A DNA stretch of 64,000 nt from Halanaeroarchaeum sulfurireducens (GTDB taxonomy: Archaea > Halobacteriota > Halobacteria > Halobacteriales > Halobacteriaceae), in contig NZ_CP008874.1 in NCBI RefSeq assembly GCF_001011115.1, positions 620,001 through 684,000 on the forward strand, written 5' to 3'. The notes beneath the pieces were generated by a model. It had not been told where the DNA came from and did no database searches. It worked only from the letters and a program-made list of their open reading frames with translations. Of this stretch, positions 52,515-63,313 are shown one piece after another. Numbering within the stretch: the first letter of the stretch is position 1; the number at the start of each line of letters is the position of its first letter. The position numbers were made by a program, and so were the translations under genes.

Positions 52515-52628
52515 ATGACGCTAATCGAAGATCATACGCCGGACCGCACGGTCGGGCGGCTCGACATCGAAGCGGGACAGCGGGCACGACAGCCCACGAC
52601 GGCATCGAGGTGTGTAGACGATGAGTAA
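52515..52628 (+). CDS. small leader ORF overlapping psrA
   Basis: The ORF encodes 37 residues: MTLIEDHTPDRTVGRLDIEA, then GQRARQPTTASRCVDDE. Its last codons GATGAGTAA overlap the psrA start (ATGAGTAA) by 8 bases. The layout suits translational coupling or an upstream regulatory ORF. It is the first ATG after promoter P2. It has no homologue that I recognise. Whether it makes a stable protein is not known. Confidence 0.4.
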   Translation: MTLIEDHTPDRTVGRLDIEAGQRARQPTTASRCVDDE

Positions 52629-54942
52629 GGGCCTTCGGGACCGCGCCTCGCTCACTCGACGGACATTGCTGAAAGCCGGGGGAGCGGCGGCGGGCGCGGC
52701 TGCTCTCGGTGGCTGTCTCTCCTCGTCCGAGGACGGGGAAGATCAGGTCAGCGGAGAGGTTTTGACCGCATTCGGGAACTGCTGGATGTGTTCGCACAAC
52801 TGCGGACAGAAAGCCTACGTCAGGGAGGATTCCTCGGGAAAGAAGACCGTGGTCAACCTCACGGGCGTGGACGGCCACCCGCGGGGCAGTGCCGGCGAGG
52901 GTACCGAGGGAACCCTCTGCCCGAAGGGGTTGGGACAACTCGACAAGACCCACGACCCCAAACGCATCCAGGAACCGCACATCCGCAAGAACGGCGAACT
53001 GCAGAAGGTGGAGTGGGAGGAGGCGTTCCAGTACACCGCCGAACGTCTCGCGACGTTCAAAGAGGAAAACGGGTCCGAGACGTTCCTCGATGCCACGAGC
53101 TGGGCCGAGACGTCGATCTTCTCGACGGTCTGGCGTGAGCTCTACGGGACTCCCGAACGGATCAGTCGTGGTATCCACGTCTGTGCGGGTCCGACGTTCG
53201 TTTCCGGCGGCATGATGGGCGTGGGGTCCAACAACCGTGTCCCCGACTATCAGAACTCGGAGTATATCATCGCCTGGGGCCGGAACCAGCTCAACTCCTT
53301 CGCCGGTCAGTTCGAGGCCAAGGGAACGCTGGAGGCCATCGAGAAGAACGGCGCGACGCTGGTGACCATCGACCCGCAGCACACGATCACCGCCGAGAAG
53401 TCGGACAAATGGCTTCCGATCAAGCCCCGAACCGACGGCGCGCTGGCGCTGGCGATGGCCAACGTCATCATCGAGGAGGACCGCTACGACGAGGACTTCG
53501 TCGAGAACTACACGCACGGATTCGACGCCTACGCGGAGGCCGCAGCGGATATGCCGCCCGAGCGGGCGGCGGACATCACGGGCCTCGACGCCGAGGACAT
53601 CCGCAAGGTGGCCCGAGGATTCGCCGAGGCCGCCCCGCAAGCCGGCATCTCCGTCTGGACCGGCACCGCACAGGTGGGCAACGGCTGGAAGGCGACCCAG
53701 AACATCACCGCCCTCAACGGGCTCGTGGGCAACATCGATCGTCCTGGCGGACTCCGTCTCTGGAAGTACGCCTCCACCGCGTCGTTCGGCGAGGTCTGCG
53801 AGCAGGACTACACGAACCGGGCGGAGTTCAAAGAACCCGCCATCAACAAGTACGACGAGTACTCGGACTACCCGGTCCGGCACATCACCGGTATCGCACA
53901 CAACCTCGTGCCGGAGATGGTCGAAAACGGACACATCAACGGCATCGTCGTTCACCACGACGACCCCCTCAAGGACGGCAACGCCGACGCGTGGGTCGAG
54001 GCTCTCGACGCGATGGATCTCGTTCTCTCGATCGACGCCTACTGGAACGGCGTCTCCCGGAACGCCGACATCGTTCTCCCCGAAGCGACCCAGCTCGAGA
54101 AGGACACCCTCGGGACCGGTAACTGGAGCGCGTATCCCAAGCACACGTGGGTCACCGGCTCGAAGGCCGCCGTCGACCCGCAGTGGAACACCAAACCGGA
54201 CTTCGACATCCTCGTCGGTATCGCCGACGCGATGGCCGAGGAGACCGGCAACGACGACTGGACGGTCTTCGAGCAGTGGGACACCCACGAGGACTTCATC
54301 GACGACGAACTCTCGGCCATCGATTTGACCCTCGAGGACATCGACAGCGGCGAGGTCAATTACGAACTCGTCGACGAGTTCGAGTACGAGAGTTGGGAGG
54401 GCGACGACCACTACACGTTCAATTTCGATCTGGACCAGGTCCCGCCCTTCGCGCAAGCGGCAGAGGAGGCTGACATGGACACGGCGCCCGAGTGGATTCC
54501 GCCGGGTACCTACGGCGACGAACTTAGCGAGGACTACCCGCTCGAGTTCTACGACGTCCGTTCGGTCTTCTTCTCGCACGCCAGCAATCAGCCCCAGGAG
54601 CGCTTGCGCGACCAGTTCGCGAAGCGAAACGAACTCGCCGACGAGGACTATCGGGGCAACTACCTCCACATCAACCCGGAGGACGCCGACAAGCGCGGCA
54701 TCTCCTCGGGCGATATGGTGACCGTCGAATCAGAGACCGGCAGCGGTGAACTCATGGCGGTCGTCTCCGAGCGCGCCCGACCCGGTTTCGTCACCGCCGA
54801 GTACGGCTTCGGCGAGACCTCGGCGACGCCCGACGGAGAGGGCATGAACACGATGACACTTCATCACAAACAGATGGATCCGATCACGGGACAGGTGGAC
54901 AGGCACATCGCCGTCGAAGTAACGTCGTCGGGGGGTGACTGA
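52621..54942 (+). CDS. psrA: molybdopterin oxidoreductase catalytic subunit, Psr/Phs (polysulfide/thiosulfate reductase) type
   Basis: The protein (773 aa) is in the DMSO reductase superfamily. A Tat signal (LTRRTLLKAG near residues 11-20) and lipobox-like LGGC at 32 indicate export. The [4Fe-4S] ligands are C54, C57, C61 and C100, in CWMCSHNCGQKAYV and CPKGLGQLD. The molybdenum ligand is likely C188 in HVCAGPTFVSGG. Further MGD-binding segments are GRNQLNSFAGQF and TVESETGSGELMAVVSERAR near the end. The substrate is probably polysulfide, sulfur or thiosulfate, inferred from the neighbouring rhodanese. Arsenate or tetrathionate reductase types remain possible. Confidence 0.85.
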   Translation: MSKGLRDRASLTRRTLLKAGGAAAGAAALGGCLSSSEDGEDQVSGEVLTAFGNCWMCSHNCGQKAYVREDSSGKKTVVNLTGVDGHPRGSAGEGTEGTLCPKGLGQLDKTHDPKRIQEPHIRKNGELQKVEWEEAFQYTAERLATFKEENGSETFLDATSWAETSIFSTVWRELYGTPERISRGIHVCAGPTFVSGGMMGVGSNNRVPDYQNSEYIIAWGRNQLNSFAGQFEAKGTLEAIEKNGATLVTIDPQHTITAEKSDKWLPIKPRTDGALALAMANVIIEEDRYDEDFVENYTHGFDAYAEAAADMPPERAADITGLDAEDIRKVARGFAEAAPQAGISVWTGTAQVGNGWKATQNITALNGLVGNIDRPGGLRLWKYASTASFGEVCEQDYTNRAEFKEPAINKYDEYSDYPVRHITGIAHNLVPEMVENGHINGIVVHHDDPLKDGNADAWVEALDAMDLVLSIDAYWNGVSRNADIVLPEATQLEKDTLGTGNWSAYPKHTWVTGSKAAVDPQWNTKPDFDILVGIADAMAEETGNDDWTVFEQWDTHEDFIDDELSAIDLTLEDIDSGEVNYELVDEFEYESWEGDDHYTFNFDLDQVPPFAQAAEEADMDTAPEWIPPGTYGDELSEDYPLEFYDVRSVFFSHASNQPQERLRDQFAKRNELADEDYRGNYLHINPEDADKRGISSGDMVTVESETGSGELMAVVSERARPGFVTAEYGFGETSATPDGEGMNTMTLHHKQMDPITGQVDRHIAVEVTSSGGD

Positions 54943-54944
54943 CG

Positions 54945-55601
54945 ATGGCCGCCGACACCGACCACTGGGTCTTCTACTTCGACCCGAACCGATGTATCGG
55001 CTGTCACGCGTGTACGGTCTCGTGCAAACAGTATCACGGCCGTGGCTCGGACGCCGACGACTGGCGGACTGTGACCCACCACGAGGAAGGGACATACCCG
55101 GACGTCAACGACGTCCCCATCTCGATGTCCTGCATGCACTGTCACGACGCACCGTGTGAGAAGGTGTGTCCGACCAACGCGATCGAGAAGCGCGAGTCGG
55201 ACGGCATCGTGACGATCGATCGCGAGAAATGTATCGGCTGCAAGTACTGCGGCTGGGCCTGTCCGTTCGGGGCACCGACCTACGGCGACGAGGGGCTCAT
55301 GTCGAAGTGTAACATGTGTCTCGGGCAAGGGCCTGGCGCCGGTGCCGACGCGGACTCGACGGCGAAACACAAACAGGACGGACAGGCGGCCGTCCAGCCG
55401 AACTGCGTCTCCGACTGTGTCGGAGGGGCCATCAAGGCCGGGCCACAGAGCGAGGTCATCCGTGAGGCGTCGGAGGCCGCTGCCAACCGCTTCAAGTCCG
55501 ACAACGGTCGCGTCATCGTCGAACCGTTCGCCGAGGGCAGTGCTGCCGTCGATAGCACTGGCTCGAGCGACATCATCACGCCGTTCAACGCAGGGGACTG
55601 A
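54945..55601 (+). CDS. psrB: electron-transfer iron-sulfur subunit (PsrB/DmsB type)
   Basis: This 218-residue protein has four cysteine clusters: CIGCHACTVSCKQYHG, CMHCHDAPCEKVCPTNAI, CIGCKYCGWACPFGAP, and CNMCLGQ with a later cysteine in NCVSDCVGG. These can bind four [4Fe-4S] clusters passing electrons from the membrane subunit to PsrA. No signal is present; such subunits ride out with PsrA. It starts two bases after the psrA stop and ends two bases before psrC. Confidence 0.94.
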   Translation: MAADTDHWVFYFDPNRCIGCHACTVSCKQYHGRGSDADDWRTVTHHEEGTYPDVNDVPISMSCMHCHDAPCEKVCPTNAIEKRESDGIVTIDREKCIGCKYCGWACPFGAPTYGDEGLMSKCNMCLGQGPGAGADADSTAKHKQDGQAAVQPNCVSDCVGGAIKAGPQSEVIREASEAAANRFKSDNGRVIVEPFAEGSAAVDSTGSSDIITPFNAGD

Positions 55602-55603
55602 GA

Positions 55604-56749
55604 ATGAGTGTGACAGGTGGTGCAGCAGGGTGGCTGTGGCTGGACTCCCCGCACTGGGCGGAGTTCATCGCCACGTACCTGTTCCTGGGTGGCGTGAGCG
55701 GCGGCGCGTACCTCACGTCGACGTGGGCGAGCCTGATGAAGCACCTGATGGACGAGCAGAACTGGCTGAGTCGGGTGCTGTTGGCCCGTTCGGACGATCC
55801 CGAGCACCGGTTTTCGTGTTCGGAGACGGCCCGCTGGGGGTCGCTGATAGCGGTGTTGGGCATCGCGGTCGGTGGGTTAGCGTTGCTCTCACACCTGGGT
55901 GCGCCGATACGCGCGTTGACGTTCCCGGTGTTGTTCACGAACTTCGGCTCGTGGCTGGTGATCGGGACGTGGGTAATCGTGCTGTTCTCGGTGTGGGCAG
56001 TCCTGGAGACCTTGTGGTTGCACTTCGGCGCGGACCTGCAGGGAACGTCGGGGCTTAGTCTGTTCCCGCGGAAGATCCTGTCCTGGATCGACGGCGTGAT
56101 GCCGTGGCGGACGGATCGGGGCATCACGTGGTTGATCGACACGATCGCGGACGCGACGCGGCCGCCGAGTCGGCTGTGGGGCGGCCTTCGAATCATCGGC
56201 GGGGTGCTGTCGGTAACGCTGGTGGTGTACACGGCGATGCTGCTGAGCGACGTGACGGTGGTACAGTTCTGGACGCGGCCGTACCTGCCCTTTATCTTCC
56301 TGATGAGCGGCGTGTCGACGGGAATTTCGGCGGCGCTGCTGGGAACGGTGCTGAGCGGCGGCGCGCTCACCCGCACCAACCATCGGTTCTGCCTGACCGA
56401 CGACGCGATAATCGTGGTGGAGCTGGTGGGGATCGGGCTGCTGTTATCCTTCCTTTCGAGTTCGCCGAACATGGGCGCGCAGGCGAGCCTGACGGCGCTG
56501 TTCGACACCTACCAGTTGCTGTTCGTGGGCGGGGTGCTGGCGTTCGGGACGATAATCCCGGTAATCCTGTCGCTGACGATAACGGTCCTCCACGAGTTCA
56601 CGCACTTCGAGGAGAATCCGATGGGTGCTCGCCTGCTGACGGGCGGGTACGCGACGAAGTACGTGCTGGTGTTGATCGGCGGATTCCTGCTACGCTACGT
56701 GGTGTTGATGGCTGCGGTAAAGAGTCCGCTCGCGGTTCCGGGGCTGTAA
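55604..56749 (+). CDS. psrC: NrfD/PsrC-type membrane anchor subunit
   Basis: The protein (381 aa) has eight or more membrane helices and the NrfD family start (AEFIATYLFLGGVSGGAYLT). SHLGAPIRALTFPVLFTNFGS and WLVIGTWVIVLFSVWA match the quinone-binding region of relatives. It should oxidise menaquinol and pass electrons to PsrB. The DNA is rich in CTG and GTG codons, with no obvious sign of foreign composition. Confidence 0.93.
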   Translation: MSVTGGAAGWLWLDSPHWAEFIATYLFLGGVSGGAYLTSTWASLMKHLMDEQNWLSRVLLARSDDPEHRFSCSETARWGSLIAVLGIAVGGLALLSHLGAPIRALTFPVLFTNFGSWLVIGTWVIVLFSVWAVLETLWLHFGADLQGTSGLSLFPRKILSWIDGVMPWRTDRGITWLIDTIADATRPPSRLWGGLRIIGGVLSVTLVVYTAMLLSDVTVVQFWTRPYLPFIFLMSGVSTGISAALLGTVLSGGALTRTNHRFCLTDDAIIVVELVGIGLLLSFLSSSPNMGAQASLTALFDTYQLLFVGGVLAFGTIIPVILSLTITVLHEFTHFEENPMGARLLTGGYATKYVLVLIGGFLLRYVVLMAAVKSPLAVPGL

Positions 56750-56752
56750 GAC

Positions 56753-57388
56753 ATGGACGATCAATCCCGATCGGCGTGGTCCGAGGCGCTGATCGTGCTC
56801 TCGAACTGCCTCCGCCAGCCCGATTCGGGAATGCGGGATGCGATCGTTTCGGGGCGGGGACGGGAGACGATAGTCGAGACCCTCGAACGGGTCGGCGTCG
56901 ACGTCCCGACGCCCCCATCGGTGACGGAGTGTGATCTGACGGAGGCCTACGAGGCGCTGTTCGGTGCCTTCGTGACCCCGTTCGCTCCGCCGGCCGCCTC
57001 CCCGTACAAGGAGTGGTACGAGGGTAGAGAGGGATTGATGGGCGGACCGCCCGCGTCGGCGATGGAGCGGCGGTACGATGCTCTAGACGTCGACATTCCG
57101 CCGTCGTATCCGCCGGATCACGTGGCGCTCGAACTGGAGTACGCCAGCCTCCTGCTGGAGGCGGGCGAACTGGACGAGGCGGCGGCGTTCGTCGAGGAGG
57201 AACTGGACTGGATCGACGCGTTCGCGGAACTGGTCGACGAGGCGTCGGCCGATGCCCCGTTCCACCGGTGGTGTGTGGACGTGCTGACGAGAACCGTCGC
57301 GGATCTCAGAGGGGAGCTGGACGTGCCGGCACCGTCCCAGGAACGCATCGATCGAATGGCAGAACGCGGGAGACAGAACGCGGAGTAA
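56753..57388 (+). CDS. TorD/DmsD family chaperone for the molybdoenzyme
   Basis: The 211-residue protein resembles TorD/DmsD-type chaperones in size and helical pattern. EAYEALFGAFVTPFAPPAAS, PPDHVALELEYASLLLEAGE and FAELVDEASADAPFHRWCVD match the P-P-D-H/L-E-Y-segment of this family. It probably binds PsrA before cofactor insertion and Tat export. It is the fourth gene of the psr operon, starting three bases after psrC. Confidence 0.85.
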   Translation: MDDQSRSAWSEALIVLSNCLRQPDSGMRDAIVSGRGRETIVETLERVGVDVPTPPSVTECDLTEAYEALFGAFVTPFAPPAASPYKEWYEGREGLMGGPPASAMERRYDALDVDIPPSYPPDHVALELEYASLLLEAGELDEAAAFVEEELDWIDAFAELVDEASADAPFHRWCVDVLTRTVADLRGELDVPAPSQERIDRMAERGRQNAE

Positions 57389-57395
57389 TCTGCAA

Positions 57396-58001
57396 ATGGG
57401 GGAGGACAGGGAGGACGTCCGGTTCGACCGATGGGGGTACCGACTGGAGTACCGTGTGCAGGCCCCCGAGGCGTGTCCGGTCCGTCGGCTGGACGCCGAG
57501 GTGACGGACGTGACGGTGTTCTGGGGCGACGGGACGGTGAACTGCGATTTCGTGACGCGATCGGACGACGGCGAGATATCGGTACGACACTACTGTCATT
57601 CGAACGGCGAGGAGTGTCCCTGTTCTGCCGTCTTCGAGAACGGGGCGATCCCCCGCGTCAGTCCGGTGAGAGACGAATCGGCGGACGAGCTATTGATCAC
57701 GACCTACGTGGGAACACCTACCACGGCAGAGTCGATAACGGCGTCGTTACACGAGGTGTCGTCGTCCGTCGAGGTCGTGGACTATCGGGAGATCGGGCCG
57801 GATGCCGAGTGGTCTGCGCGCGTCGATCTCTCGGCGCTGACGGACAAACAGCGCGAGGCGATTCGCACGGCGATGTACGAGGGCTACTACGAGACGCCCA
57901 GCGAGACGACCATCGAGTCGCTGGCGTCGCTCGTGGGGATCTCCAGTTCCGCGTTCGCGACGCGTCTCAGGAACGCCAGTACTCGGCTGAGTGGTTATTG
58001 A
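57396..58001 (+). CDS. second HTH-10 (bacterio-opsin-activator-like) regulator
   Basis: The 201-residue protein has an N-terminal domain with cysteines (HYCHSNGEECPCSAVFENG) and a C-terminal HTH-10 domain (LTDKQREAIRTAMYEGYYET and SLASLVGISSSAFATRLRNA). It is the last gene of the psr operon, eight bases after the chaperone gene, and may provide feedback. Its 3' end overlaps the convergent Cdc48 N-domain gene by 35 bases, so the island joins exactly at its end. Confidence 0.88.
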   Translation: MGEDREDVRFDRWGYRLEYRVQAPEACPVRRLDAEVTDVTVFWGDGTVNCDFVTRSDDGEISVRHYCHSNGEECPCSAVFENGAIPRVSPVRDESADELLITTYVGTPTTAESITASLHEVSSSVEVVDYREIGPDAEWSARVDLSALTDKQREAIRTAMYEGYYETPSETTIESLASLVGISSSAFATRLRNASTRLSGY

Positions 58002-58482
58002 ACTGGATGTATGTTGCGTCAGTTACCACAACATGGCTTTCGGGTCTTGTTTTAACAACGTGTATAGGGAACGCTTGTCCCGTTTCTAAGTTGGTGTCCA
58101 CAAACACAGTTTTTCCTGATTCCACAGCCTGACCCGCTAAATTGGATCGGAAATACTCATCAGCATTTCCACGAAAGTTAAGATTCTCCGAAATGGCAAT
58201 AGTGATTGATTCTGCTGGTTGGATGTTAGCAGTGAAGATCTCTACCTTTTCATCAATTGATGAATTTAGAGACTTTCGTGTTTGGCCATCTATTCTAATG
58301 ATATTCCGATCTTTGTCCTCCGGATATCCCGGCCAGACCCTCAAGACATCGCTATCATGATTACTTTCAAGAGAAATATAATTTCCATCATCTAAGTTTA
58401 ATTCATCCATCACAGATGTGTCAATAGCAGCGATCCCATTATTAGCGTATTTTTGATTTAATGGCTTGACAGTTAGTTCCAT
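57967..58482 (-). CDS. stand-alone Cdc48/VAT N-terminal domain protein
   Basis: The protein (171 aa) aligns by eye with the N-terminal part of archaeal Cdc48/VAT: MELTVKPLNQKYANNGIAAI, RVWPGYPEDKDRNIIRIDGQ and FRGNADEYFRSNLAGQAVES, ending near the typical VVVTDATYIQF segment. It contains the double-psi barrel and second N subdomain (substrate/cofactor binding) but no AAA+ ATPase domains. It ends where the ATPase would begin. It could be an adaptor or competitor of Cdc48, or a truncation. DNA is AT-rich. It follows the 277-residue gene by 42 bases on the same strand. Confidence 0.8.
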   Translation of the reverse strand: MELTVKPLNQKYANNGIAAIDTSVMDELNLDDGNYISLESNHDSDVLRVWPGYPEDKDRNIIRIDGQTRKSLNSSIDEKVEIFTANIQPAESITIAISENLNFRGNADEYFRSNLAGQAVESGKTVFVDTNLETGQAFPIHVVKTRPESHVVVTDATYIQFNNHSAEYWRS

Positions 58483-58524: not shown

Positions 58525-59358
58525 CTACGCTAAGCTCTTGATCTCGTTAACGATCTTCATTACCTCCTTATCATCCTTATCGCTGATGTCAAGACCGATG
58601 TTGAGCGTGAGATCATTTGATCGCAGTTCTGCTATGATCTGAGCGGTTCCATCGTTGGCAACTTTGCCGCCACTGTCTACCTTGGATTCTGCGCCACTGT
58701 CTATGGTAACACTGTCACCAGTAACATTGTCCGGGTGACCTTCGCTGGAAACCTTCGATTCTGGCGCAATAGACGTTTTTTCCGGCAATTCATATTTGCT
58801 CGCCAGTTTCTTCGCGAAGTCATCATAATCGTCAGAAACAACGAGTCTTGTGGGGTAATTATGCCTACCAACCTTTCTATTTCCCAGTCCAGCGGCCTGT
58901 GCAGTCTTCAATAGAAGGTTGATTTCTCTGCTCTCAGGATCTCCCTCGAGATACGTATTTACGCCTTCTATCATCTCGTCGATGCTGATTGCACGCTCAC
59001 CGTTAATGTCCACAATACGATCTTCGAGATGGGCTGAAAGAAGGCCGATTCTGTACGGTTCGTATGACTCAATTGCTCGTCGGAATGTATTCTTGACGCC
59101 CGGTTCCTCTATTGAATCGGCCTGCCAAAGCGGGAATCCATAATCCGACAAGGAGACGCGTGGGGTTTTGGAGTTTCCTTCTTCCAGTTCAAGGAAACCA
59201 AGTGTCGAACCGAAATCAGTGGCAGCCGATATCTGACGTCGGTCTAACTCCATCTCATCGTATAGTTGGCTCCTTTTGACGGTTCGACTGTTCAACTGCG
59301 TACACACGGCGTACAGGTCCTCGGGTTTCGCTCTACTCGGAAGTTGGACTTCGGTCAT
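58525..59358 (-). CDS. uncharacterised 277-residue protein, partner gene of the Cdc48 N-domain protein
   Basis: The protein starts MTEVQLPSRAKPEDLYAVCT. The N-terminal 60 residues look like a winged-helix domain (LYDEMELDRRQISAATDFGS). A helical middle segment (KNTFRRAIESYEPYRIGLLS) and a poorly conserved polar linker (about 190-235) follow. The end, AELRSNDLTLNIGLDISDKD and MKIVNEIKSL, resembles the last part of DUF5343-like proteins seen in many accessory loci. No enzyme motif is evident. An AT-rich promoter lies upstream (59401-59412, minus strand). Confidence 0.7.
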   Translation of the reverse strand: MTEVQLPSRAKPEDLYAVCTQLNSRTVKRSQLYDEMELDRRQISAATDFGSTLGFLELEEGNSKTPRVSLSDYGFPLWQADSIEEPGVKNTFRRAIESYEPYRIGLLSAHLEDRIVDINGERAISIDEMIEGVNTYLEGDPESREINLLLKTAQAAGLGNRKVGRHNYPTRLVVSDDYDDFAKKLASKYELPEKTSIAPESKVSSEGHPDNVTGDSVTIDSGAESKVDSGGKVANDGTAQIIAELRSNDLTLNIGLDISDKDDKEVMKIVNEIKSLA

Positions 59359-59517
59359 GCTAACACAATGAGTGGGGTGTCACAAAAAACTTGCGCGCCA
59401 AAGAATTTATTTCATTGATTGGAAAACAAAATAATATGTGCTACCACGGAATGTGCGCCAAGTATGGGAATAGTGTCCCGGAAAACAGTCGAGAACGCCG
59501 TTCGGTGTGTTCTTTTC

Positions 59518-59562
59518 TAAAGGTTGTTTGGAAACCCTTTAGACGGAACTTTTAGGTCCGTA
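59518..59562. repeat. pair of inverted repeats
   Basis: CTAAAGG ... CCTTTAG (59518-59524 with 59537-59543) and ACGGA ... TCCGT (59544-59548 with 59558-59562), almost back to back. They may be a terminator or the ends of a lost element. They do not flank an open gene. Confidence 0.5.
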
Positions 59563-59604
59563 TTAGGCGTTAGTGATATCTCGCTCCAGTCCCTAACCAC
59601 CTCT

Positions 59605-59814
59605 TCAGTCAAAGTCGATGGTTCCCATTCGCTCTGACTCTGTCCGGACCGGGACCGTTCGCAGTGGTATTTGCCGGTCGTCGTTAAGGATCATACCGAT
59701 TCCAGCACGTTTCACATTTACTTTCCATGTTCCACGTCCCCGGGCACGAGACTTTTGCCAGGTCTTGACAGACCCATCCGCAGCACCAACGTCAGGGATC
59801 GGAGAACACCATTC
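59605..59814 (-). pseudogene. start-less ORF fragment (possible gene remnant)
   Basis: The minus strand is open for 69 codons and ends with a stop at 59605-59607. No start codon is placed at its beginning, which follows an in-frame TAA. The translation has protein-like character (EWCSPIPDVGAADGSVKTWQ, GTWKVNVKRAGIGMILNDDR, TESERMGTIDFD). It may be the 3' end of a gene cut by rearrangement. No family is recognised. Confidence 0.3.
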
Positions 59815-59820
59815 TTAATC
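59812..59820 (+). promoter_or_regulatory. TATA box of egsA
   Basis: TTCTTAATC lies about 45 bases upstream of ATG 59862. Confidence 0.45.
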
Positions 59821-59861
59821 GTTGGGCAACACCTATCAGTGTCCTCTAGAAACCCACGTGC

Positions 59862-60920
59862 ATGTTCGAGAAATCGACGTGGATCCGCCTGCCGCGAAAC
59901 GTCGTGATGGGCCACGACGTCCTCGCGGACGTGGGTGCGGTGATTGCGGACACCCACCTCACGGGGCGCCCGCTCATCGTCACGAGCCCGACGCCGAAGT
60001 CGGTCGCCGGCGAACCGATCGTCGACCAGCTGGAGGCGGACGGTCTCGACCCCCTGTTGACCATCGTCGAGACGGCGAATTTCCAGGCTGTCGAACGGGT
60101 CATCGAGACGGCCCGCTCGGCGGACGTCTCGTATCTATTGGGCGTGGGCGGCGGCAAGGCCATCGACATCGCGAAGATGGCCGCCGACGACCTCGGCGTG
60201 GACTTCATCTCCGTTCCCACCGCCGCGAGCCACGACGGGATCGTGAGCGGGCGGGGCTCGGTCCCGGATGGCGACACCCGTCACAGCGTTGCCGCCGCCC
60301 CACCCATTGCCGTCATCGCCGATACGAACGTCATCGCTGAGGCTCCCTGGGAGTTGACCACGGCCGGCTGTGCGGACATCATCAGCAACTACACCGCCGT
60401 GAAGGACTGGCAACTCGCGAATCGGCTGCAGAACGTGGAGTACTCCGAGTACGCCGGCGCGCTCTCGCAGATGACCGCGGAGATGCTCGTCGACAGAGCC
60501 GATTCCATCAAACCGGGCCTCGAGGAGTCCGCGTGGCTCGTGGTCAAGGCGTTGGTCTCCTCGGGAGTCGCGATGAGCATCGCCGGCTCTTCGCGACCGG
60601 CCAGCGGGGCCGAACATCTCTTCAGTCATCAGCTCGATCGCATCGCCCCTGGGGCGGCCCTCCACGGCCACCAGGTCGGCGTGGGGGCCATCATGATCGA
60701 GTACCTCCACAGCGGCGAAAAGGGGGCGTGGCACGACGTCCGGGACGCCCTCGAACGTATCGACGCTCCCACCACAGCCGACGAACTCGGCGTTTCTGCG
60801 GAGGACGTCGTCGACGCGCTCACCTCGGCACACGAGATTCGGGACCGGTACACCATCCTCGGCGGTGGTATTAGCGAGGAAGCCGCCATCCAGGTGGCGA
60901 CCACGACCGGCGTCATCTGA
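59862..60920 (+). CDS. egsA: sn-glycerol-1-phosphate dehydrogenase
   Basis: The 352-residue enzyme makes the archaeal glycerol-1-phosphate backbone of membrane lipids from DHAP, using NAD(P)H. It has LLGVGGGKAIDIAKMAADDL in the Rossmann part and ISVPTAASHDGIVSGRGSVP. The metal-binding segments are ELTTAGCADIISNYTAVKDW and SGAEHLFSHQLDRIAPGAAL with HGHQVGVGA. Length is standard. ATG 59862 begins the protein. Its presence alone marks the organism as archaeal. Confidence 0.96.
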   Translation: MFEKSTWIRLPRNVVMGHDVLADVGAVIADTHLTGRPLIVTSPTPKSVAGEPIVDQLEADGLDPLLTIVETANFQAVERVIETARSADVSYLLGVGGGKAIDIAKMAADDLGVDFISVPTAASHDGIVSGRGSVPDGDTRHSVAAAPPIAVIADTNVIAEAPWELTTAGCADIISNYTAVKDWQLANRLQNVEYSEYAGALSQMTAEMLVDRADSIKPGLEESAWLVVKALVSSGVAMSIAGSSRPASGAEHLFSHQLDRIAPGAALHGHQVGVGAIMIEYLHSGEKGAWHDVRDALERIDAPTTADELGVSAEDVVDALTSAHEIRDRYTILGGGISEEAAIQVATTTGVI

Positions 60921-61306: not shown

Positions 61307-61331
61307 ATATATTAATTGAAGAACTGTTCAA
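61307..61331 (+). promoter_or_regulatory. promoter and putative ArsR operator upstream of arsR
   Basis: ATATATTAA (61307-61315) is the TATA box, centred 28 bases from ATG 61340. Next to it is TTGAA-N6-TTCAA (61316-61331), an inverted repeat of the size used by ArsR/SmtB dimers. Binding there would block transcription in the absence of metalloid. Confidence 0.55.
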
Positions 61332-61339
61332 ATGATGGT

Positions 61340-61738
61340 ATGGGCCTCCGATCTGAGCGAGTGGAACGGCACCTCGAGGACGAACTCGACGAGTGCCGGA
61401 TGGAGGACGTGGAGACACGCCTCTCGGAACTGGACATGCTCCAGTCGACGGCCAGGAGCGACCGGGTCGAATCCGACCTCGCAGTGCTCTCACCGCTGGG
61501 CAACGAGACACGCTATCGCCTGGCGCGCGTGCTCGTCGAGGCCGACGACGAACTCTGTGTCTGCGAACTCAACGCGGTCGTCGACGTGAGCGAGAGTGCC
61601 ATCAGCCACGCGCTCTCGGACCTGCGCGACGCTGGTCTCGTTACCCGGCGCAAGGACGGACGGTGGCGCATGTACGAGGCGACGCCGGTCGCGTTCGCGA
61701 TCATCGACGCCCTCGATGAGGTGCACGACGATGAGTGA
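61340..61738 (+). CDS. arsR: ArsR-family transcriptional repressor
   Basis: This 132-residue winged-helix protein has LSPLGNETRYRLARVLVEAD, ELCVCELNAVVDVSESAISH and ALSDLRDAGLVTRRKDGRWR, the DNA-recognition region. The metalloid-binding cysteine pair lies in ELCVCEL, the normal ArsR site. ATG 61340 fits the TATA box. It overlaps acr3 by 8 bases (ATGAGTGA), so repressor and pump are coupled. Confidence 0.92.
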   Translation: MGLRSERVERHLEDELDECRMEDVETRLSELDMLQSTARSDRVESDLAVLSPLGNETRYRLARVLVEADDELCVCELNAVVDVSESAISHALSDLRDAGLVTRRKDGRWRMYEATPVAFAIIDALDEVHDDE

Positions 61739-62888
61739 CGCGGGAAACGATTCGGACTGTGACGCCCCGGATTGTGCGGATTCGGGGTCGATGGACTTCC
61801 TCGATAAGTACCTCACCGTCTGGATCCTCGGCGCGATGGTGGCGGGCGTCGGTCTGGGCTACATCGCTCCCTCGGTTACGGGACCCATTCAGCGGTATCA
61901 CCTCGTGGAGATCGGGCTGATCTTGATGATGTACCCGCCGCTGGCGAAGGTCAACTACGGTCAGTTGCCGACGGTGTTCCGGAATTACAAGGTGCTCGGG
62001 CTGAGCCTCGTCCAGAACTGGCTGATCGGGCCGACGGTCATGTTCGCGCTGGCCCTGGTCTTCTTCAGCGGACTGGTGCCGGGTCTCCCTGCGCGGCCGG
62101 AGTTCTTCCTCGGACTCGTGTTCATCGGGATGGCGCGATGTATCGCTATGGTGCTCGTCTGGAATGACCTCGCGGAGGGCTCGGCGGAGTACGCCGCCGG
62201 TCTCGTGGCGTTCAACAGCGTCTTCCAGATCTTCACCTACGGCGTCTACATCTGGTTCTTTGCCCTCTTCATGCCAGGTCTGCTCGGACTCGAGGGGCTC
62301 GCCGCGGGCATCGAGGCGTTCGGTATCACGCCGATGCAGGTCTTCCAGGCCATCGCCGTCTTCCTGGGTATCCCATTTGCGGCCGGCATCCTCTCGCGGG
62401 TGGTCGGCACCCGCCGGAAGGGCGTCGAGTGGTACGAGGAGACGTTCGTGCCGACCATCAGCCCGGTGACGCTGATCGCGCTCCTCTTCACCGTCATCGT
62501 GATGTTCGCGATGCAGGGCGAGCGCATCGTCGGCACGCCGAGTGACGTCCTCCTCATCGCCGTGCCGCTGACCATCTACTTCGTCGTGATGTTCTTCGTC
62601 AGCTTCGGAATGGGCCGGGAGATCGGCGCCGACTATTCGACGACCACGGCCATCGGATTCACGGCCGCCTCGAACAACTTCGAACTCGCCATCGCCGTCG
62701 CGGTGGCCGTCTTCGGGGTCGGCTCCGGCGTGGCGTTCACGACGGTCGTCGGCCCCCTCATCGAGGTGCCGGTCCTCCTCGCGCTGGTCAACGTGGCGCT
62801 GTACCTCCAGCGGAAATTCGACTGGCGCGGGTACACGACCGGGTCTCTCGAAGAGCCGACGGGACAACCGACGGAGGGGGGTAACTGA
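61731..62888 (+). CDS. acr3: arsenite efflux transporter Acr3
   Basis: The protein (385 aa) has about ten membrane helices of the BASS/Acr3 type. The conserved cysteine used in arsenite transport is C137 in GMARCIAMVLVW. TVWILGAMVAGVGLGYIAPS and QNWLIGPTVMFALALVFF are family-like helices. A short N-terminal cysteine segment (C10 and C15, CDAPDC) is unusual and may bind metalloid. It expels arsenite (III) from the cell. Start ATG 61731 overlaps arsR. Confidence 0.95.
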   Translation: MSDAGNDSDCDAPDCADSGSMDFLDKYLTVWILGAMVAGVGLGYIAPSVTGPIQRYHLVEIGLILMMYPPLAKVNYGQLPTVFRNYKVLGLSLVQNWLIGPTVMFALALVFFSGLVPGLPARPEFFLGLVFIGMARCIAMVLVWNDLAEGSAEYAAGLVAFNSVFQIFTYGVYIWFFALFMPGLLGLEGLAAGIEAFGITPMQVFQAIAVFLGIPFAAGILSRVVGTRRKGVEWYEETFVPTISPVTLIALLFTVIVMFAMQGERIVGTPSDVLLIAVPLTIYFVVMFFVSFGMGREIGADYSTTTAIGFTAASNNFELAIAVAVAVFGVGSGVAFTTVVGPLIEVPVLLALVNVALYLQRKFDWRGYTTGSLEEPTGQPTEGGN

Positions 62889-63313
62889 TGGGGGCGACGA
62901 CGGTCGCTTTCGTCTGCGTGCAGAACGCCGGCCGATCTCAGATGGCGTACGCGTTCGCCAAGCGGGAGGTCGCCGACCGTGGTCTCGGTGCGGACCTCAA
63001 ACTCCTCACGGGTGGAACCCGTCCGGCGGACCACGTCCACGCGAACGTCGTCGACGCGATGGCCGAGGTGGGCTTGGACATCGTCGACCGAACGCCACGC
63101 GAGATAACCTTCGAGGAGACCCGCGACAGCGACTACGTCATCACGATGGGCTGTTCGACCGAGGACGTCTGCCCGGCCGGCTGGGCCGGAGAGAACCGTG
63201 ACTGGGACCTCGAGGATCCTGACGAGAAGTCGCCCGAACAGGTGGCCAAGATTCGCGACGATATCGAGTTTCGCGTCACGGCGCTCTTCGACGAACTCGA
63301 GGTCTCACCGTAG
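62888..63313 (+). CDS. arsC: arsenate reductase ArsC (low-molecular-weight phosphatase fold)
   Basis: The 141-residue protein has the P-loop VCVQNAGRSQMAYAF with nucleophile C10 and two partner cysteines C89 and C95 in MGCSTEDVCP. This is the thioredoxin-coupled ArsC type. It reduces arsenate to arsenite for Acr3. The start overlaps the acr3 stop by one base, making arsR-acr3-arsC a single operon. Confidence 0.93.
   Translation: MGATTVAFVCVQNAGRSQMAYAFAKREVADRGLGADLKLLTGGTRPADHVHANVVDAMAEVGLDIVDRTPREITFEETRDSDYVITMGCSTEDVCPAGWAGENRDWDLEDPDEKSPEQVAKIRDDIEFRVTALFDELEVSP

Follow-up and report, generated by a model that had tools for sequence, protein, structure and literature searches.

A Cdc48 N domain without its ATPase at the edge of an AT-rich island in Halanaeroarchaeum sulfurireducens: a probable remnant of a mobile two-gene cassette

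Introduction

Is a gene that encodes the Cdc48 N-terminal domain and nothing of the AAA+ motor a functional gene in its own right, or the remainder of a longer one? The question is raised by a 171-codon open reading frame in a 64,000-nucleotide stretch of the Halanaeroarchaeum sulfurireducens genome (contig NZ_CP008874.1, positions 620,001 to 684,000), hereafter called the window. The frame lies with a second gene in a short AT-rich island between native genes, and its end overlaps the end of a convergent regulator gene. The features of the locus are collected in Table 1.

Table 1. Features at and around the N-domain frame (positions counted from the first letter of the window)
Feature	Position	Strand	Remarks
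DMSO-reductase-type operon	52621-58001		complete: catalytic, FeS and membrane subunits, TorD-like chaperone, dmsR
dmsR-like regulator of the DMSO-reductase operon	57396-58001	+	HTH_10, DmsR_N; C-terminus altered
Lone Cdc48 N-domain frame	57967-58482	-	ATG start, 171 aa, both subdomains, AAA+ absent
Last 8 codons (HSAEYWRS) and stop of the N-domain frame	57967-57995	-	antisense to dmsR, homologous to dmsR of the same genus
Left junction of host DNA and island (inferred)	57995-57996		no host homology beyond about 57995; G+C of 0.60-0.66 gives way to 0.46 or less
Partner gene	58525-59358	-	277 aa, upstream of the N-domain frame, same direction, 42-base gap
Remainder of the island	59359-59861		AT-rich, non-coding, ends at the native G1PDH gene
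Arsenic-type resistance cluster	61316-63313		ArsR-like regulator, ACR3-like transporter, ArsC-like phosphatase (by eye from the reading frames)

The Encoded Protein Is a Complete Cdc48 N Domain

Two Pfam families were matched in the 171-residue protein above their cut-offs: CDC48_N (PF02359) at residues 3-85 (67.9 bits against 35.1, E 9e-19) and CDC48_2 (PF02933) at residues 103-161 (32.5 bits against 22.4, E 6.7e-8), which represent the double-psi barrel and the C-terminal subdomain, respectively. With the NCBIfam profile of CDC48 (TIGR01243) residues 3-165 are aligned to profile positions 4-163 of 733, and the family level is missed (80 bits against a cut-off of 802.65), the D1 and D2 AAA+ modules being absent. 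The search of PDB sequences returned VAT and VAT-derived barrels. The AlphaFold model, built on an alignment of 20 sequences (pLDDT 88.2, pTM 0.77), places the last β-strand of the domain at residues 158-161, and its best Foldseek matches are p97-N and VAT-N (TM 0.68-0.79, E about 1e-11). Thus it is confirmed by Pfam, NCBIfam and the predicted structure, with similarity far above chance, that the protein is a complete Cdc48 N domain without the AAA+ part, as had been stated in a preliminary description of the locus, where the likeness to the VAT N domain was also anticipated.

Compared with the N domain of archaeal Cdc48/VAT (VAT-N, PDB 1cz4) the protein has the same subdomains, order, and fold, but the linker, D1, and D2 are absent and substitutions occur at 19 of the 62 positions with at least 98% invariance in the family, including K9, D12, G14, R15, and R22 near the first psi loop. 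About five residues are absent from the loop near residue 132. The best identity to a full-length Cdc48 is about 50% over 171 residues (Haloarcula), or 52% by a second measure, while the haloarchaeal orthologues are mutually close (79% mean column identity in the 20-sequence alignment). In the tree of the N domain the protein forms a long branch whose placement is not settled.

The substitutions are not scattered evenly. When conservation classes were taken from 95 orthologues, the protein was found to retain 69% of the residues in the class of at least 98% invariance, 54% in the 90-98% class, and 11-30% where the family is more variable, so that its substitutions track family conservation (Spearman 0.45, p about 1e-9). 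The 770-residue paralogue of the same genome behaves similarly, with 66% of the invariant residues kept. Since invariant residues were retained, the lineage of the domain has been under constraint, without drift, for most of its time. The pattern points to purifying selection, which may date from the time when the ATPase was still present or from the time after it was lost.

The genome (2.21 Mb, 99.9% complete) contains five further genes with CDC48_N, each of full length (747-822 aa). With the D1/D2 part of Cdc48 as query the same five were found together with three shorter frames of 406-435 aa, which are PAN-like as judged by size, and no orphan Cdc48 ATPase fragment was detected in the whole genome. 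This result shows that the part missing from the lone N-domain gene is not located elsewhere in the genome and rules out a split or relocated Cdc48.

The Frame Ends in the Backward Sequence of dmsR

The N-domain frame and the convergent dmsR 3′ end share 35 bases (57967-58001), and the codons of the terminal residues HSAEYWRS (57970-57993) as well as the stop codon (57967-57969) are antisense within dmsR. The window dmsR product terminates with ASTRLSGY (end given as RLRNASTRLSGY), and the conserved native end is gone: the corresponding end is AEREIFSQLLEYV (also given as RLRKAEREIFSQLLEYV) in a genome of the same genus (G001), AEREILSQISASR (also given as RLREAEREILSQISASR) in G003, and AEQAIADQLLDAI (also given as RLRNAEQAIADQLLDAI) in the dmsR paralogue of the host genome. 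Sequence related to the DMSO-reductase operon was also observed near C1:55300 and C1:1238000 of this genome. Relative to G001, the window dmsR is without 28 bases past 57977 and then matches the dmsR 3′ end (AGTA--CGTCTGAGTGGT) until 57995; an equally good score arose in 2 of 2000 shuffles and in not one of 5000 genomic segments.

By this alignment host DNA is shown to extend to about 57995, and the frame's final eight codons and its stop are, at the level of sequence, dmsR read backwards. Because host homology reaches so far, the frame ends at the junction of foreign and host DNA and not at a stop of its own evolution. The donor-derived part accordingly stops at about residue 162-163, right after the last strand of the domain, and both convergent genes, dmsR and the N-domain gene, appear to have lost their 3′ ends at the junction. 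A shared “AE” near the end of the frame was considered as a sign of donor homology up to 57982; it is probably a chance likeness, because the dmsR match to 57995 is better. In the preliminary description the end at a structural border had been taken to argue for an independent function over truncation. With the stop and the HSAEYWRS codons antisense in dmsR this argument loses much of its force, and the junction also makes an evolved stand-alone decoy less likely.

In base composition the island differs clearly from its surroundings: the G+C content is 43% between 58001 and 59000 and 52% between 59001 and 60000, while the surrounding sequence has about 64%, in agreement with the AT-rich character first described. 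At third codon positions (GC3) the N-domain gene reaches 0.38 and the partner 0.51, whereas the flanking host genes lie at 0.81-0.86. The native G1PDH gene begins at 59862, which places the right island junction near 59860, and in G001 the island is absent and other genes stand between dmsR and G1PDH. Composition and comparison together show the AT-rich segment as a foreign two-gene island. One ORF-like stretch of its intergenic part (minus frame, “EWCSPIPDVG...TIDFD”) was compared with plasmids and gave no match.

Searches for Other Lone N Domains

Among the matches listed for 98 related genomes no other lone Cdc48-N gene was found, a result that applies to matches of this range, since very divergent lone domains could lie outside it. 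All these matches are in long frames with three exceptions, of which two (G026 and G064) are short because the contig ends there and the third (G015) is frame-disrupted. In a scan of GTDB contigs each of the best 80 loci belonged to a long frame, and one of these frames runs off its contig. Among the collections searched the frame is thus carried by one genome only. No locus with an intact version of the second gene was found, so that the truncation is deduced from the junction by itself. Likewise, no fusion of a Cdc48 N domain to a non-AAA+ domain was observed in any collection searched; the other Cdc48-N frames examined continue into AAA+ domains, run to the end of a contig, or are frame-disrupted. 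In the literature no paper on lone Cdc48-N proteins of haloarchaea was found.

Several sources of the domain were considered and rejected. A viral source gave no phage, haloviral, or IMG/VR match, and the viral structure library contained no haloviral match to the N domain at E ≤ 0.001. Plasmids yielded only annotated AAA ATPases or unannotated Cdc48 copies with at most 43% identity, and the search for a plasmid donor at the DNA level gave no match. Two of these plasmid Cdc48 copies were read and both are frame-disrupted: an unannotated copy on megaplasmid 2 of Halobacterium sp. GN101 (L151) carries frameshifts, and another on pNVE500 of Natrinema versiforme (L150) has one internal stop. Each adjoins an Hsp20 gene.

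The Partner Gene Heads a Recurring Gene Pair

The product of the partner gene comprises winged-helix-like regions, an acidic linker, and a β-β-α C-terminus. It has no confident match in Pfam, NCBIfam, PADLOC, PHROGs, or PDB sequences, in accordance with its initial description as an unknown partner, and no anti-phage defence model of PADLOC matches either gene of the island. Its structural model is of low confidence (pLDDT 55) and the winged-helix matches are weak (E 0.013), which weakly suggests that the protein contains winged-helix units.

Six of 97 relatives contain a homologue of the partner, and others were found in the tailed viruses HRTV-5 and HCTV-7/9/11 and on a Natrinema plasmid; profile searches in three overlapping genome sets (392, 392, and 146) added a few further close members. 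The proposed test of recurrence had a divided outcome: the pair with the N domain is absent from the 98 relatives and no N-domain gene was found beside any partner homologue, an outcome that the preliminary description had named in advance as weakening a functional role, while the partner itself recurs with other second genes. In the well-resolved close members the second gene is always compact and co-directional and begins at -4 to +17 bases from the partner (42 in the window). In G063 the partner homologue is followed by an HSDR_N-type nuclease with a 4-base overlap, and in G370, with the same overlap, by a 191-aa protein that has no Pfam match and contains a VDVK motif, reminiscent by eye of PD-(D/E)XK nucleases. 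In G013 and G004 a 163-aa protein follows after 1 base, while in HRTV-5 (gp39) and on the Natrinema plasmid a 175-176-aa protein with a hydrophobic N-terminus follows after 17 bases. Apart from this last pair the second proteins are mutually unrelated; they are 70-358 aa long and none is AAA+. A clear second gene was not identified behind the partner homologue in G386 and G262. By gene content and order the partner family, which has no Pfam entry, seems to mark a modular gene pair not recorded before, in which the second gene is exchanged, and this cassette family is a more transferable result than the lone N domain.

The genomic neighbourhood of the family resembles two types of known systems. 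As in type I and IIG restriction-modification (RM) loci, the partner family adjoins an RM gene or precedes a nuclease: in HRTV-5 the restriction-methylase gene gp42 is located just upstream of the cassette, with an integrase and a tRNA nearby, in G386 a type IIG RM gene is divergent from the partner homologue, and in G063 the HSDR_N nuclease comes second. Methyltransferase genes in the neighbourhood of the cassette region have also been described for the HF1-group viruses (PMC7230728). However, the window island has neither methylase nor nuclease, and the partner is not a known RM subunit. With toxin-antitoxin pairs the cassette has in common a first gene of DNA-binding type, a compact swappable second gene, and a location in mobile DNA, a likeness of gene layout alone, and no toxin or antitoxin family is matched in the island. 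The HRTV-5 unit gp40-gp39 (L146:8001-9313, KC292022.1), which adjoins the methylase gene gp42, is a candidate counter-defence or superinfection cassette.

Origin and Possible Role of the Lone N Domain

According to these data the island is probably the remnant of a mobile two-gene cassette whose second gene, bearing the N domain, was truncated at its 3′ end against dmsR. The cassette would have been acquired horizontally, with the winged-helix-like partner as the first gene and a second gene whose product originally carried a complete, though divergent, Cdc48 N domain at its N-terminus; the 3′ part of the latter would have been lost where the island met the 3′ end of dmsR, which supplied the stop codon. 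This account is favoured by the host-derived end, the foreign composition, the occurrence of the partner with other second genes, and the retained fold. Against it stands the position of the break: if the donor was a full Cdc48 of some 750 residues, a break at random would hit the segment separating the N domain from D1 in only about 4% of cases (29/750, simple arithmetic), and for this reason a donor gene that was short from the beginning stays a serious rival. The account is also opposed by the constraint on the domain for most of its history and by the 28-base loss in dmsR relative to G001, which is an additional event outside it. As the other second genes are short and non-AAA+, a full Cdc48 donor becomes less likely.

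In the truncated cassette the partner may be the regulatory or sensing part and the second protein the interchangeable acting part, and the N domain would bind N-domain ligands, namely, substrates, ubiquitin-like SAMP conjugates, or cofactors of the host Cdc48. The Haloferax protein Cdc48a is associated with SAMP1 and with nucleases and has a role in recovery from DNA damage (PMC10470531), and in the Ufd1 UT3 domain the Cdc48-N architecture occurs without an ATPase and binds ubiquitin (PMC4192671). From these two precedents a lone N domain could hold such ligands or compete for them, and since the motor part is missing the 171-residue product could at most do this, in analogy with an ATPase-less Ufd1-type domain.

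An unlikely alternative, which shares the truncation with the cassette account but leaves no role for the product, is a decaying functionless fragment of a diverged Cdc48 or Cdc48-N fusion that stayed open by chance after the deletion. The single occurrence and the missing 3′ ends of both convergent genes agree with decay, and the disrupted plasmid copies in Halobacterium GN101 and Natrinema versiforme illustrate that haloarchaeal plasmid Cdc48 can take this course. Nevertheless, 171 codons are open, the complete fold is predicted with high confidence, the substitutions follow family conservation, and the partner gene is intact.

A real lone N-domain protein is held to be rather unlikely. Here the donor never had an ATPase, integration exchanged the last codons, and the product serves as a Ufd1-like adaptor or as a decoy that competes with the host Cdc48 for cofactors or tagged substrates. 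A role of this kind is possible because the domain was constrained and a cut exactly at its border, directly behind the last β-strand, is improbable by chance. The conservation is that of a functional divergent paralogue, the second genes of other cassettes are small and without AAA+, and Ufd1 UT3 offers a precedent, with Ufd1-like proteins of giant viruses among the fold matches of the model in the viral structure library. By Pfam and predicted structure the protein indeed has the Cdc48-N fold without an ATPase that is typical of Ufd1. On the other hand, the protein has no match to the UFD1 Pfam family at E up to 1, the C-terminal Cdc48-binding tail of Ufd1 is absent, Ufd1 is eukaryotic, and the likeness is one of fold alone; moreover, the stop codon is host-derived and the single genome has no counterpart in the 98 genomes, the best 80 GTDB loci, phages, plasmids, or IMG/VR.

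A Cdc48 N domain fused to a different, since lost, non-AAA+ effector domain would suit the varied domains of cassette second genes, including the HSDR_N-type nuclease, and the missing 3′ end, but it is distinctly improbable, as the collections searched contain no example of it.

In the broadest form of these ideas, which is regarded as improbable, the ATPase-less N domain is one interchangeable acting part of a winged-helix-headed mobile conflict cassette of haloarchaea and their viruses that interferes with or redirects Cdc48/SAMP protein handling. If the lone domain were functional, an archaeon would be using the Cdc48 N domain in the manner of Ufd1 or as a decoy, in the context of virus-host conflict, and mobile elements would be connected with the archaeal SAMP/Cdc48 pathway. 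The partner family, which occurs in haloarchaea and in the HRTV-5 and HCTV-7 viruses near RM genes, is in itself a tractable defence or counter-defence candidate.

Distant Relatives of the Partner Family

Distant relatives of the partner (about 315-320 aa) were observed in six compact operons (L161, L162, L165, L172, L112, and L113) with a small gene of about 140 aa upstream and, where the locus is long enough, a HerA/DUF87-type ATPase downstream; those of the middle and small genes that were scanned belong to no Pfam family. In two other loci (L169 and L170) the relative is followed by a conserved protein of about 320 aa with the motif YSTGSGI..GGAHGDDAE and no family assigned, and in L111:1039-2001 a partner-like N-terminal region is fused with Hypoth_ymh (PF09509). 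In G370 the partner cassette (L180, 5876-9974) adjoins a XerC/D-like integrase, and on the opposite strand of this locus a 251-aa gene is by eye similar to nucleotide-sensing TIR/deoxyribosyltransferase-like proteins.
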